DNA of 36,727 bases, from positions 1 to 36,727 of the forward strand of contig JAOAEE010000002.1 of assembly GCA_026416955.1 (NCBI GenBank). The letters run 5' to 3'. The DNA is from Ignavibacteria bacterium. GTDB lineage: Bacteria > Bacteroidota > Ignavibacteria > Kapaibacteriales > UBA2268. Position numbers and translations under genes: made by a program. Shown here piece by piece: positions 11,605 through 16,852 of this stretch (the first letter of the stretch is position 1; the number at the start of each line of letters is the position of its first letter). Under the pieces are notes generated by a model that was given only the letters and a program-made list of their open reading frames with translations, had not been told where the DNA came from and did not search any database.

Positions 11605-11632
11605 AAAACCCCGCAGAGTTCTGCGGGGTTTT
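11605..11632 (-). terminator. Rho-independent terminator of the sigma/anti-sigma operon
   Basis: AAAACCCCGCAG (11605-11616) pairs perfectly with CTGCGGGGTTTT (11621-11632) around an AGTT loop. On the minus strand the GC stem is followed by a T run. It lies 21 bp past the stop of the sorting-domain gene. It is symmetric enough to work on both strands. Confidence 0.92.
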
Positions 11633-11653
11633 ATTTCTTATGGATAATTTTTT

Positions 11654-14191
11654 TTAGCGCACTACAACAAATTTAATAACCTTGTCATTATTTATTCCTT
11701 TGACTTTTGCAAGATATATACCACTTGGCAGTTGGCTAATGTCGACTACAAGTGTGTTGTCGCTAAGATTGTATTTTGTCGAAAATGAATTGCCATACAC
11801 ATCATATAGGGTAATTCCTTGGAAATTAATATCGGTGTAAAAGTTGATGAATAAATATTGTTCGGTTTGGTAAACTTTGAATTGATTGTTTTCATAAACT
11901 TCGCTTACTTCTTTTTCGATGTAAATGGTGGAGTTTATTGCGAAATTGCTTTCATAGTCACCTTTGAAGGAAGTCTCCAAGTCTTTGTATCCAACTTTGC
12001 TAATCATTAGTTTTATTGTTGTTGGGGGTAGAGTTTCAAGGATAAATTTTCCATACGCATCAGTGATATAGTAATCAATTACATCTCCATTTTGGTCGAG
12101 AGCACAAACCAAGGCTTCTTGAACAGCGGGTGGTTCTTTAGATTGCGGTTCGTTGAAGATTTTAATATTACCGGTAGCTTCGACTACTTTGCCTTCGCAA
12201 CGAACAAGTCCTTTCCAACCAGAACGATTTCGGTGTTTTATTTCGAAGATTATTTGTATCATACTTTGGTCAACAGAAATTATCGATGCATCTTTCCATT
12301 TTAAGGTTGCAAAGTCGTTTTGCTTATAATAACCGGGGGCATATTGTTTATCTTTTGGCACAGAAAGTAAAACATAATCGCCGGGTATCAAATTTGTGAA
12401 CGTGAATTGACCATTATCATTTGTTTCTACCACTGCTATTGAATTGTATTTTGGAACGTTTTGGAATTGTTGCTTGGGAGCTACCAGGATAGCCATTACT
12501 CGGGATTGAATTGGGTTTCTATCTTTGTCAATTACTATACCAGAGAATCCATTGTTTTGCTTTTCTATAGGTTCAAGCAAGAAATTAATATCGTCTCTGT
12601 CCTCGGTAAGTTCAATAATATCGGCTAGGTATGGGGAATTCGAAAGGTGATAATATTGGTCTTTGTATAGTGCTTTACTATACGAGGGGACAGCGTGTGC
12701 GATATAAGTAAAGGTATTGGGAAGTTTGATTTGGTAAAAACCATTTTGGTCGGTTTTAGTTACAAAATTTTGAATAAAGCCATAATTTTCTTTTTTATCG
12801 GGGTTAAAAAGAAACTCCACTGGTATGAACTCTACAACAGCAAGGACTGGGGTGTCATCTTTTGCCGATTTAACATAGCCAGATACTGAGTATATCGTAG
12901 GTTGAGGTTTCTTTTGCAAAATCATTTCGATTGTGTAGTCTTTCACTTGGTTGTCCAAACATTCAAGTTTTACTTTTGTAGCATCAATAAATCGAGTGGC
13001 GTTAGCAAAGAAACTGTGTTCGAAAAGTTCCCCATAAAATTCAAACACGTATGTTCCTTGAGGTAGGTAGAACTCGAAGGAGCCATCCTTGATGAAAGTC
13101 TTGAAGACAACATTAGTTTGGTTATCGTTTGCATCAAGTTTCCAAGCATAAACTAATCCATTTGGGACAGATGTATTATCTTGGAACTTAGCAGAACCAA
13201 TAATATGTGCGCAATGTTTAGTATTTTGACCAGATTCTGTTATTTTAATACATAATCTTTGATATGCCAAAACATTAGTGTCGCAAGAGAGGTAAGCAAT
13301 AATAACAATACCGAATAAACCAGTGGTTTTGGGTGTCCAAGTTAGCAATCCAGTATTTTCATCTATTTGGGCACCTTCCATATTCCCTTCGGCGATTTTG
13401 AATTTAATTGGACACCGAATATTTGATTCTGCAATTACTTGATATTTTAAAGGAACACCAACTTGCCAAGTTGCTGGTGGTTGGCTTACTATTTTTACAT
13501 AAGGTTTGTCGTTGTTGGGATTTTCTAATACGATGATTTTATACTTCTGGTAGGCGGGTTTTACATTAATTTTACAGGTTGTACCAACTTTAATTGTAAC
13601 TTCATATGTTCCAATAGCACTCGGTGTCCATTCGACCAAACCAGTGCTTGAAATTGTCATACCTTCTGGATACGAACCTTCGAATTCGAATATGTCAATT
13701 GGGCAGTTAATATTCGAGTATGCTTTGACTTGGTAGAAGTATTTTTTACCCACATATGCGAAAGTTGGTGGTTGTGAAATAATTTGGATAAAATATTGTT
13801 GTTTAAAAAGGTCAACTCGGACAGTATTGCTCGGTTTACTTTCTGCCTTTCCAATGTAAGAGGTTGCGTAGAATTCATATGTTCCTGCTTGAAGATTTTT
13901 TACCACGTAATAGTATTGGTATTGTCCTTGTTTTGCTTGTACTTCTGCTTCGAAAAAGGTTTTTACCATCCCATTTTGGAAAACAGTCTTATAGATTTTG
14001 AATCCTTCGGGGAAATTTCCCGACTGATTAACTGACCACAAAAGTTTGACGTTGAAAGAACCATCGGAAAGTTCCTCTGGAACTGCACTTAGTTGCTTTG
14101 GCGGGTTCGGAACAACATTTTGAGCAAACAGGGGAATTGCAATAACCATTGCCAAAATTCCCCAAACGACATAAAGAATTTGCTTTTTCAT
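11654..14191 (-). CDS. Large secreted protein with Ig-like and carboxypeptidase-regulatory-like repeats and sorting domain
   Basis: An upstream in-frame ATG at 14215 exists, but ATG 14191 places a good signal peptide (MKKQILYVVWGILAMVIAIP, cleavage near LFAQ) at the N terminus and gives 845 residues. An FN3-like segment comes first. Two putative Ig modules follow, each starting IISQPP or IVSQPP and ending in G-L-V/L-x-WTP (TGLVEWTP, TGLLTWTP). Then come several carboxypeptidase-regulatory-like modules (for example SGYVKSAKDDTPVLAVVEF, FSGIVIDKDRNPIQSRVMAI). The last ~70 residues (ITLYDVYGNSF...LPSGIYLAKVKG...VIKFVVVR) resemble a type IX secretion sorting domain. It is the last gene of the sigma-factor operon, 30 bp after the lipoprotein gene. 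It is probably surface-exposed; the ligand is unknown. Confidence 0.85.
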   Translation of the reverse strand: MKKQILYVVWGILAMVIAIPLFAQNVVPNPPKQLSAVPEELSDGSFNVKLLWSVNQSGNFPEGFKIYKTVFQNGMVKTFFEAEVQAKQGQYQYYYVVKNLQAGTYEFYATSYIGKAESKPSNTVRVDLFKQQYFIQIISQPPTFAYVGKKYFYQVKAYSNINCPIDIFEFEGSYPEGMTISSTGLVEWTPSAIGTYEVTIKVGTTCKINVKPAYQKYKIIVLENPNNDKPYVKIVSQPPATWQVGVPLKYQVIAESNIRCPIKFKIAEGNMEGAQIDENTGLLTWTPKTTGLFGIVIIAYLSCDTNVLAYQRLCIKITESGQNTKHCAHIIGSAKFQDNTSVPNGLVYAWKLDANDNQTNVVFKTFIKDGSFEFYLPQGTYVFEFYGELFEHSFFANATRFIDATKVKLECLDNQVKDYTIEMILQKKPQPTIYSVSGYVKSAKDDTPVLAVVEFIPVEFLFNPDKKENYGFIQNFVTKTDQNGFYQIKLPNTFTYIAHAVPSYSKALYKDQYYHLSNSPYLADIIELTEDRDDINFLLEPIEKQNNGFSGIVIDKDRNPIQSRVMAILVAPKQQFQNVPKYNSIAVVETNDNGQFTFTNLIPGDYVLLSVPKDKQYAPGYYKQNDFATLKWKDASIISVDQSMIQIIFEIKHRNRSGWKGLVRCEGKVVEATGNIKIFNEPQSKEPPAVQEALVCALDQNGDVIDYYITDAYGKFILETLPPTTIKLMISKVGYKDLETSFKGDYESNFAINSTIYIEKEVSEVYENNQFKVYQTEQYLFINFYTDINFQGITLYDVYGNSFSTKYNLSDNTLVVDISQLPSGIYLAKVKGINNDKVIKFVVVR

Positions 14192-14221
14192 ACGACACCC
14201 AAAAAAGTGGAACATTTCTTA

Positions 14222-14986
14222 TTAATATTTTAATCTTATTTTGAAATTCAATAATAATGAATCGGGAAATGGCGTTATTTCTTCGATTTGAAGTTTAATA
14301 ACTTTGACCTCCCAATAATCGACCTTTTTTACATATGGCTTGTTATCTATCCAAATCGTATCGTATCGTGTTTTTAGAATGGAGTCGATAACAGTGGTAT
14401 CTCGTTTAGTAAGGGCGTATCTTGTATTGTATATCTTACCATATCCTAATGCCCAAATCTCGCGAAATCTTTTGTTATAATTGAAACCAATTTCGAAGTA
14501 ATTGGGTTTTATGGTTGGGTCGACAATTGTATCAAAATCCTTTTTTGGACCACGAGCAAGGTTAACTTTAATCCAAGATTTAGGGGATTCAAAAGTTCTA
14601 AAAGGTAAAGGGAAACCTACAATTGGAAAAGAGTCGATATTAAAGTTAATGCTTTTGATTGTTAAACGACGGGAGCCTTTTTCTTGGTACTCAAAGTGTT
14701 TTCTTTCTAGGTTTAATTTGAACCAAACGAGTGGTGTTTGGCTAAGCGTGTCGACAGAAATTTCTGCCTTTCGTGGTTCGAATGCACCTTTTTCAACATT
14801 TGTAAATTGTTCGTTTACGACACCATTTTCTCCAATCGATATGTAGTAAATTTGTGGGTAAATTCTGGCTTTCATTCTATCGGTAGGTTTTGCAACAACC
14901 GGGTCATCAAGTTCTGAAGGTTGTGTACAAAATTGTAAGCTAAGTGTTATGAATACAATAACTATTAAAATGAATTTTCTTTTCAT
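14222..14986 (-). CDS. Putative lipoprotein, unknown function
   Basis: ATG 14986 is preferred over the in-frame ATG 15031. It puts the basic-plus-hydrophobic leader (MKRKFILIVIVFITLSLQFC) at the N terminus and leaves a 22-bp gap to the preceding gene, whereas the upstream start would overlap it. That gives 254 residues. Cys20 follows LQF, a loose match to a lipobox, and is followed by the Ser/Asp/Pro-rich sequence TQPSELDDP, so outer-membrane lipidation is plausible but not certain. The rest is beta-rich and matches no domain I know. It sits between the anti-sigma/barrel gene and the sorting-domain gene, which suggests it acts in the same envelope complex. Confidence 0.7.
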   Translation of the reverse strand: MKRKFILIVIVFITLSLQFCTQPSELDDPVVAKPTDRMKARIYPQIYYISIGENGVVNEQFTNVEKGAFEPRKAEISVDTLSQTPLVWFKLNLERKHFEYQEKGSRRLTIKSINFNIDSFPIVGFPLPFRTFESPKSWIKVNLARGPKKDFDTIVDPTIKPNYFEIGFNYNKRFREIWALGYGKIYNTRYALTKRDTTVIDSILKTRYDTIWIDNKPYVKKVDYWEVKVIKLQIEEITPFPDSLLLNFKIRLKY

Positions 14987-15008
14987 ATTTCGAATTAGAT
15001 TGAGCAAC

Positions 15009-16196
15009 TTAAAAGATAATTGATATACCATAAGTGATACCTATTTTTCTTGTCAAGTAATAATTTTTTTGGTTTTGGTAAAATAGTAAAGTGCCTTCTG
15101 CACCTAGATAAATCTCGAAATTAGAACGATTTGGTCTGTATTTTAAACCACCAATTCCTTTTATCAATGGGCCGCCAATTTGAGAGCCTCCCGCAAGCAA
15201 TGTTATGAATGGTTGCAAGTTTGGTTGGTTTAAAATTTCAAATGGTAGAACATAATCAATTCCAACAGCTCCCCAATATATTGCTGGTTTTTGCTCGTAG
15301 ATGTATTCTATTCCATTTATTGTATTAAGATAACTAAGCCCGAAAATTTCATTCCCGAATTCTATTCCAAATTTGATGTTATCCCATTGAGTAAAAAATA
15401 GTCCTAAGCTAGCATTCGATAGAATATTGTTTCTTTCTTCAATTGAAATACCCGGGTTTGGAAATGATTTTCCGGCAATTCCACGGAAGGTGAAATATAT
15501 ATTTTTATTCTGTTCATTTTTAAAAGTGAAGTAAGTTGGTTCCTTGAAACTTATTTTACGACTTTCTAAATTAGTTGCTAAGTTTTTTTCAGAAGACAGA
15601 TTTACATCATTTTTGCGGTTAATATTGCTTTCCTCAATTTTCTGAAATTCGTCGTTAATATCTTTTTGCTCACTCAATAAAGTTTCTCTTTTGTCTAAAT
15701 TATTTTTGGTTTGTAAAGTATTATTTAGTGGAGTGGACAAATTGGTATTGGGTTTATCGTCTTGTGCAATTGTTGAAATAATAATTGGTGGTGTTTGTAC
15801 TATTGATTTTGAATTCTGTACATCTGATTCATTAGGCTTGAAAAAGTAATAAGTAACAAAAAATGTTAATAACGAGGAAAGTAATGCAATTAGTATTGGA
15901 ACACCAAATTTTCTCGCTTTTTGGAAAGGTTGGCTCGATACAGATTGAGTATTATTTATTTCATTATTTAAAACTGATAGCCCTAATGCATTGACAATGT
16001 TCAGGGCAGCAGTTGGTGGTGGTTGAAGTGAAGTGGCATCGGAATAAATAGTTCGTGAAATAGCCAGATGTTCCCGCATTAAAGTTCTAAGTTCCTCATT
16101 TGTGGATAAAGCTGCAAATAGTTCAGCTTCTTCTGAATGAGGAAGTTCACCATCAAGGTATTCAATAATTTTTTCGGTTATCTCATTTAACTCCAT
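15009..16196 (-). CDS. Anti-sigma-like protein fused to a predicted beta-barrel domain
   Basis: The 395-residue protein starts with an acidic helical domain (ITEKIIEYLDGELPHSEEAE, then REHLAISRTI) of the kind found in anti-sigma factors, without a zinc-binding HxxxCxxC motif. One transmembrane helix spans about 97-119 (PILIALLSSLLTFFVTYYFF). A polar Asn/Lys/Ser-rich linker runs to about 225. The rest (about 230-395) alternates like outer-membrane beta-strands and ends in aromatic Phe (KIGITYGISIIF). It starts 8 bp after the ECF sigma gene, with GGAGGAAAG just before the ATG, so it is translated from the same message. By position it should hold the sigma factor at the inner membrane. The barrel-like C-terminus is unusual and could be the sensor. 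It could instead be a soluble periplasmic beta domain. Confidence 0.78.
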   Translation of the reverse strand: MELNEITEKIIEYLDGELPHSEEAELFAALSTNEELRTLMREHLAISRTIYSDATSLQPPPTAALNIVNALGLSVLNNEINNTQSVSSQPFQKARKFGVPILIALLSSLLTFFVTYYFFKPNESDVQNSKSIVQTPPIIISTIAQDDKPNTNLSTPLNNTLQTKNNLDKRETLLSEQKDINDEFQKIEESNINRKNDVNLSSEKNLATNLESRKISFKEPTYFTFKNEQNKNIYFTFRGIAGKSFPNPGISIEERNNILSNASLGLFFTQWDNIKFGIEFGNEIFGLSYLNTINGIEYIYEQKPAIYWGAVGIDYVLPFEILNQPNLQPFITLLAGGSQIGGPLIKGIGGLKYRPNRSNFEIYLGAEGTLLFYQNQKNYYLTRKIGITYGISIIF

Positions 16197-16204
16197 CTTT
16201 CCTC

Positions 16205-16771
16205 CTAAAATTTTGAAAACTCGGTGATGTAAGGAGCAAGAATTTCGCGCAGCTTTTCTTTTGCACGGAAAAGCCTAACTTTTACCAAAGGTAGAGAAAT
16301 ATTCAAATGGTTTGCAATTTCGTTGTAACTCATTCCTTGATATTCCCGTAAAATGAAAATTTCCCGGTATTCCTCTGGTAATTTCGAAAGAGCAGTTTTT
16401 ATTAAATTAAGCAATTCCGTTTCCTCGTTATCTTTTTCAGTATTAATAAAATGCATATAATCTTCGATTTCGGTAGATTGTCTTCTCTGACGAAGAGCAT
16501 TCAAACATAAGTTCCGAGCAATTCTCAATAAGAAAGCTGGAAGATTAGTCATTTCCCTTTCATCTTTCGACGTTTGATAAAATTTGATAAATGTATCTTG
16601 AAATACATCCATAGCATCTTCTCTATCACCTAAAAATCTTTTGCAATAGGCATAAATTCTATTGGAATACCTTCGGTAAATTTCCAAAAAAGCATACTCG
16701 CCTTCCTTGTCACCATTTGAAAGCATCTTGAATAATTCGTTGTCACTTAATTTCTCTAAATTGTTCTGCAT
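16205..16771 (-). CDS. ECF-type RNA polymerase sigma factor
   Basis: At 188 residues the size is typical of extracytoplasmic-function sigma factors. Region 2 is visible as YAYCKRFLGDREDAMDVFQD with TFIKFYQ, followed by LPAFLLRIARNLCLNALRQR. Region 4 is LSKLPEEYREIFILREYQGM, then SYNEIANHLNISLPLVKVRL and RAKEKL, the helix-turn-helix that reads the -35 element. It would direct RNA polymerase to a small regulon, very likely including this operon. It is the first gene of a minus-strand unit and is divergent from wecB. No -35/-10 pair matching a known ECF consensus could be picked out upstream. The trigger is presumably sensed by the membrane protein encoded just downstream. Confidence 0.95.
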   Translation of the reverse strand: MQNNLEKLSDNELFKMLSNGDKEGEYAFLEIYRRYSNRIYAYCKRFLGDREDAMDVFQDTFIKFYQTSKDEREMTNLPAFLLRIARNLCLNALRQRRQSTEIEDYMHFINTEKDNEETELLNLIKTALSKLPEEYREIFILREYQGMSYNEIANHLNISLPLVKVRLFRAKEKLREILAPYITEFSKF

Positions 16772-16852
16772 TCAAAATCAATAACATATAAATTTTTAAA
16801 AAGTTACAACTATTTCTTAAAGACAAATTAACTGTTTCCATATTATATTTTT

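Follow-up and report, generated by a model that had tools for sequence, protein, structure and literature searches.

The four-gene operon at positions 11,605 to 16,771 of the window, the whole 36,727-nucleotide stretch of Ignavibacteria bacterium DNA analysed, probably encodes an envelope signalling module of the Dma design, in which release of the sigma factor would drive transcription of its own operon and of an exported, T9SS-rich regulon through promoters of the form TGTAAC-N16-TGTTATT. The two-membrane design has already been described in Bacteroides; new here are its expansion in Kapabacteria, a lipoprotein partner, the conserved linkage to a large exported protein (P0004) and a candidate T9SS-cargo regulon.

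Operon organization

The operon comes from the ~2.49 Mb assembly of the source genome, that of an uncultured Kapabacteria bacterium; all four genes are on the minus strand, and it comprises the following features:

16205..16771, minus strand: ECF sigma factor P0001, 188 aa, with Sigma70_r2 and Sigma70_r4_2 regions
15009..16196, minus strand: Dma-type anti-sigma factor P0002, 395 aa, assigned from an AlphaFold2 model, a fold search and a 35-member alignment
14222..14986, minus strand: predicted lipoprotein P0003, 254 aa, assigned from its signal helix, the sequence LQFC and its position in other Dma operons
11654..14191, minus strand: large exported protein P0004, 845 aa, with a T9SS sorting tail, assigned from domain matches and kept gene order
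11663..11857, minus strand: C-terminal sorting tail, P0004 residues 779-843, matched by PF18962 and TIGR04183
11605..11632, usable on either strand: terminator, an inverted repeat with a 12-pair stem

P0001 matches Sigma70_r2 (E 5.6e-17) and Sigma70_r4_2 (E 2.6e-18), has SigE, SigH, SigW and RpoE as relatives in the PDB, and comes nearest among NCBIfam models to TIGR02985 (126.2 of 126.4 bits) and NF058625 (120 of 130). The preliminary description of an ECF sigma gene followed after 8 nt by an anti-sigma gene with one transmembrane helix is borne out by the Sigma70 domains, hydropathy and AlphaFold2, and the lipoprotein, sorting-domain protein and terminator placed behind this pair are also found, on the evidence of a lipobox-like LQFC, a borderline T9SS tail and the 12-pair stem. 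The terminator scan overall was at chance level (4 found vs 3.5 expected), with the 12-pair stem alone standing out. A divergent UDP-GlcNAc 2-epimerase gene lies upstream of the operon and an NlpC/P60 hydrolase gene on the far side of the terminator. The order of the four genes is found again in 4/4 other searched genomes of the genus and, within the family, in two further genera; the layout is therefore not due to chance.

Predicted architecture of P0002

The architecture of P0002 is a prediction, drawn from an AlphaFold2 model built from the 35-member family alignment together with hydropathy and fold comparison, and divides the protein into four parts:

15987..16196, minus strand: anti-sigma domain, residues 1-70, four helices
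15843..15926, minus strand: inner-membrane helix, residues 91-118, modelled as a helix and coinciding with the hydropathy maximum
15504..15842, minus strand: disordered periplasmic tether, residues 119-231
15012..15503, minus strand: 8-stranded outer-membrane barrel, residues 232-395, from pLDDT, Z scores and a beta-signal-like C-terminus

The four N-terminal helices are modelled with pLDDT mostly >90. Sequence matches to this domain are weak, the top ones in the PDB being RseA (E 0.041) and DdvA (E 0.078), with a weak zf-HC2 match and a sub-threshold NCBIfam anti-sigma match (E 0.0018); the HxxxCxxC zinc motif is absent from the domain. The hydrophobic helix at residues 91-118 is the single one in P0002, and each of 36 scanned homologues likewise has one. 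It is followed by a linker of ~110 residues that is predicted to be disordered (pLDDT <50 over most of residues 122-227); the length of this tether varies from 108 to 189 residues among 35 aligned homologues, which is in principle long enough for crossing a periplasm.

The C-terminal beta domain of 164 residues is modelled confidently (pLDDT ~96) with eight main strands. Fold search aligns it with a Legionella porin (Z 15.4), NspA (15.2), OmpA (14.5), OprF (14.3) and PagL (14.2), as well as with OmpW. Since soluble barrels such as PsbO and the avidins reach Z ~10, the sequence pattern of the domain was also examined. P0002 ends in GITYGISIIF, 29/35 homologues have F or Y at the final position, and on family average residues -1, -3, -5, -9 and -11 are hydrophobic with polar or small residues at the alternating positions. 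Alternating hydrophobic residues with an aromatic end appear to resemble the beta-signal of BAM substrates. A ligand-binding beta-barrel in the periplasm, soluble or tethered to the inner membrane, is what the PsbO and avidin-like scores might otherwise indicate; that is most improbable given the higher scores of transmembrane barrels, up to 15, the hydrophobic alternation of the lipid-facing type and the BAM-like C-terminal signal.

The earlier suggestion of one protein spanning both membranes thus stands in outline and by prediction, in the form of an anti-sigma domain, a helix, a tether and an outer-membrane-type barrel, and modelling of the C-terminal region gave a confident barrel at 232-395 and no small soluble periplasmic fold. 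An extension of P0002 from inside the cell as far as the outer membrane is well supported by these predictions.

Occurrence of the fusion and its neighborhood

The fusion is matched in 57/60 related genomes, with as many as 27 matches in one genome; the source genome has two full-length matches and a third partial one. The N-terminal domain is retained in the homologues examined, contrary to the prospect raised at the outset that homologues might lack it, and copies of the fusion with the same downstream genes are found in the genus and beyond. An ECF sigma gene lies directly upstream in 59/61 fusion copies whose surroundings were inspected. The next gene after the fusion encodes a predicted lipoprotein in 41/51 Dma operons, as compared with 22/155 size-similar background genes (p 5e-18). 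Genomes in which homologues of P0004 follow are the four others of the genus, G022, G008 and four from family f2; the linkage is thus present in both families f1 and f2. The closest named relatives of P0002 (42-53% identity) are from Candidatus Kapaibacterium, Candidatus Kapabacteria, Bacteroidetes/Chlorobi group and Ignavibacteria MAGs; the contig scan gave no Bacteroides match. NCBI taxonomy places the unclassified Candidatus Kapaibacteriota under Bacteroidota, the phylum to which reports of Dma are confined.

In a phylum-wide search with the family profile, strong full-length matches are confined to the source order and most matches elsewhere cover the N-terminal part only; the order-wide alignment is too variable to serve for a contig scan. 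Of three such loci inspected outside the order, two (L082 and L084, in genomes G215 and G256) have a sigma gene, a Dma-like gene and a lipoprotein gene in the same order. At the third (L085, genome G168) the barrel is missing from the anti-sigma factor, which has its N-terminal domain and a single helix, and behind it are two small exported proteins with TonB-C-like repeats, as judged by eye; this is possibly a version in which the sensor is encoded by separate genes. The second Dma operon of the source genome (L032/L002, G000:C39) lies directly behind another gene, whose product looks by eye like a PD40/TolB-like propeller.

Products of the third and fourth genes

The signal helix of P0003 ends in LQFC, an apparent lipobox. 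P0003 matched no Pfam or NCBIfam family, and comparison of its model with PDB folds gave no significant match. The AlphaFold2 model has a C-terminal hairpin of two 38-residue strands (176-213 and 216-253). In many third genes of Dma operons (e.g. L041, L042, L049, L107) the lipid-attachment cysteine begins a C-x-x-P-x-[DE]-[ILV]-[DE] sequence, perhaps a signal for surface export or for partner binding.

P0004 contains He_PIG and CarboxypepD_reg domains. Its type A T9SS tail is borderline, scoring 23.0 at the cut-off of 23 for TIGR04183 and 25.8, below Pfam's 27, for PF18962 (Por_Secre_tail). The source genome encodes the T9SS translocon component SprA (sprA; TIGR04189, E 2.7e-222).

Candidate promoter and putative regulon

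A putative autoregulatory promoter can be read directly in front of the operon:

16780..16808, minus strand: putative ECF promoter TGTAAC-N16-TGTTATT, 8 nt upstream of the P0001 start codon

TGTAAC-N16-TGTTA occurs near the start in 12/17 sigma genes of the clade to which P0001 belongs, as compared with 2/44 other sigma genes. Over 36 genomes of the source family there are 110 perfect TGTAAC-N16-TGTTATT sites and 9 mirrored-control sites; outside the family the counts are 10 and 20, 17 of those 20 mirrored sites being in one genome. Enrichment over the mirrored control disappears when the spacing is allowed to vary, and none is seen in the source genome with one mismatch allowed (15 vs 13 sites), where perfect sites number only 4, against 0 in the control. 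Within 200 nt upstream of its sigma gene, the second Dma operon (L032/L002) has no TGTAAC-N16-TGTTATT site. We infer that the motif belongs to P0001, and paralogous sigmas could use the same promoter. For two long-branch sigmas within the P0001 clade (L123 and L125, in G017 and G033) the promoter-like element is changed: TGTAAC is followed by GTCTTATAG, which might reflect joint divergence of sigma and promoter.

The DNA downstream of 60 further sites and of 20 sites in the genus was taken, the first gene after each perfect site was listed, and 66 genes were scanned alongside 66 length-matched background genes drawn from Dma neighborhoods, the background being slightly shorter (median 653 vs 735 aa). 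A T9SS sorting tail is found in 31/66 genes behind the motif (31 by Pfam and 31 by NCBIfam) and in 12/66 background genes (p 7e-4), the former count being a lower bound because several target genes extend beyond the DNA examined. An N-terminus resembling an export signal is found in 55/66 genes behind the motif and in 30/66 background genes (p 9e-6). Within the genus the putative targets include vWA/Ig-repeat, IgGFc-binding, arylsulfotransferase-like and CarboxypepD_reg proteins, a Rieske lipoprotein and an LTXXQ/Spy-like lipoprotein. The genes behind the motif thus appear mostly to encode exported proteins and to be rich in T9SS cargo, and the promoter sequence suggests a switch for genes whose products are sent to the cell surface.

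These counts bear on whether the operon is simply an ordinary Dma system that, like those of Bacteroides, governs vesiculation or the use of glycans; T9SS tails are carried by many of the proteins that these bacteria export, and the T9SS link would then be incidental. The architecture is indeed the same as that of Dma1 and Dma2, and 18% of the background genes also carry the tail; against this are the enrichment of the tail behind the motif (31/66 vs 12/66), the retention of P0004 as an operon member, and the search for NigD, the Dma1 effector in B. thetaiotaomicron, which found it in none of 118 sampled phylum-group genomes (0/118, the source genome included), and we regard an incidental link as unlikely. 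We read the operon instead as a Dma-type sensor that drives a putative T9SS-cargo regulon.

Model for signalling

In the Dma-type model the N-terminal domain of P0002 would keep P0001 inactive at the inner membrane, presumably by sequestration, with one helix of the protein passing through that membrane, a disordered tether through the periplasm, and the C-terminal 8-stranded barrel seated in the outer membrane. The trigger would lie in the outer membrane or at the cell surface, where a change would probably be sensed by the barrel with P0003 and perhaps with P0004 as well. The signal may reach the anti-sigma domain by pull, by conformational change or by proteolysis, and freed P0001 would then transcribe its own operon and the exported T9SS-rich regulon from TGTAAC-N16-TGTTATT promoters. 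The evidence on operon conservation, motif enrichment and the make-up of the downstream genes is computed.

The preliminary description had also raised the possibility of a barrel that senses how the surface protein is assembled, a conjecture made more plausible by the conserved linkage of the sorting-domain gene and by the T9SS-cargo genes behind the putative promoter. A closed loop for T9SS cargo can be tentatively envisaged in which the P0002 barrel, P0003 and P0004 report delivery to the surface and adjust the activity of the sigma factor that makes the cargo, with neither a two-component system nor a TonB-dependent receptor. We know of no barrel-bearing anti-sigma factor for T9SS cargo; if such a loop is true, one protein touching both membranes would couple arrivals at the surface to transcription.

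A different use of the barrel would be as an outer-membrane protein assembly sensor in cis. In E. coli, the C-termini of unfolded outer-membrane proteins activate DegS against RseA; by analogy, a P0002 barrel that BAM had not inserted would expose its aromatic C-terminal peptide to trigger cleavage of the anti-sigma factor, with P0003 and P0004 mere members of the regulon. The aromatic end in 29/35 homologues and the beta-signal-like pattern would suit such a sensor, as would the finding, in two genomes of the genus, of a Spy/LTXXQ-like lipoprotein gene behind the motif. Nevertheless, outer-membrane barrels in general share such a C-terminal pattern, which serves folding in any case, and the putative targets are mostly surface cargo rather than chaperones, so that a sensor in cis seems doubtful.

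Relationship to known systems

Like RseA of the E. coli RpoE system, which gave the top, weak PDB match to its N-terminal domain, P0002 is a class I membrane-anchored anti-sigma factor with one helix. RseA ends in a small periplasmic domain that is read by DegS and RseB, whereas P0002 continues into a long tether and a predicted outer-membrane barrel. Signalling of the FecR/FpvR type is similar in that an outer-membrane event reaches an ECF sigma through an anti-sigma factor; it employs a separate TonB-dependent receptor, whereas here the barrel is on the anti-sigma factor itself, and none of the four operon genes encodes a TonB-dependent outer-membrane transducer.

In the control of the T9SS in Porphyromonas gingivalis, a protein with a T9SS C-terminal domain (CTD), PorA, passes a signal from the surface to an ECF sigma by feeding into the PorXY-SigP pathway (PMC7712824). 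That pathway differs in using a two-component system, in controlling the genes of the T9SS machinery, and in that no barrel-bearing anti-sigma factor is described for it (PMC7712824). PorXY-SigP is a functional parallel, not a relative.

The founding description of Dma is said to have appeared in PNAS in 2024. The Dma family of B. thetaiotaomicron combines an anti-sigma domain, a transmembrane helix, a disordered tether and a barrel, and its genes adjoin an ECF21 sigma (J Bacteriol 2026, PMC13088901); the initial view that no described system has the layout of the present operon was thus wrong. The precedent pairs are Dma1/Das1 and Dma2/Das2, of which Dma1 and Dma2 control vesiculation and Dma2 also polysaccharide-utilization loci (PMC13088901). 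All of the Dma architectural features tested are present in P0002, which is likened to the B. thetaiotaomicron proteins by layout: the anti-sigma domain, the transmembrane helix, the long disordered tether, the C-terminal barrel and the adjacent sigma gene are shared, and the Dma2 operon also has a third gene, to which no function is assigned there. Among the papers searched, none mentions both Kapabacteria and anti-sigma. With the present analysis, the Dma design known from gut Bacteroides is extended to environmental Kapabacteria. There it has multiplied heavily, with as many as 27 matches in a genome as compared with three named members in B. thetaiotaomicron, namely Dma1, Dma2 (BT_1558) and Dma3, and a conserved lipoprotein gene accompanies it. 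Whereas the B. thetaiotaomicron systems are linked to polysaccharide-utilization loci and the output of vesicles, the Kapabacteria operon adds a lipoprotein, T9SS cargo and a putative T9SS-rich regulon, and the Dma class thereby gains a link to T9SS cargo and a candidate promoter and regulon that are directly testable.
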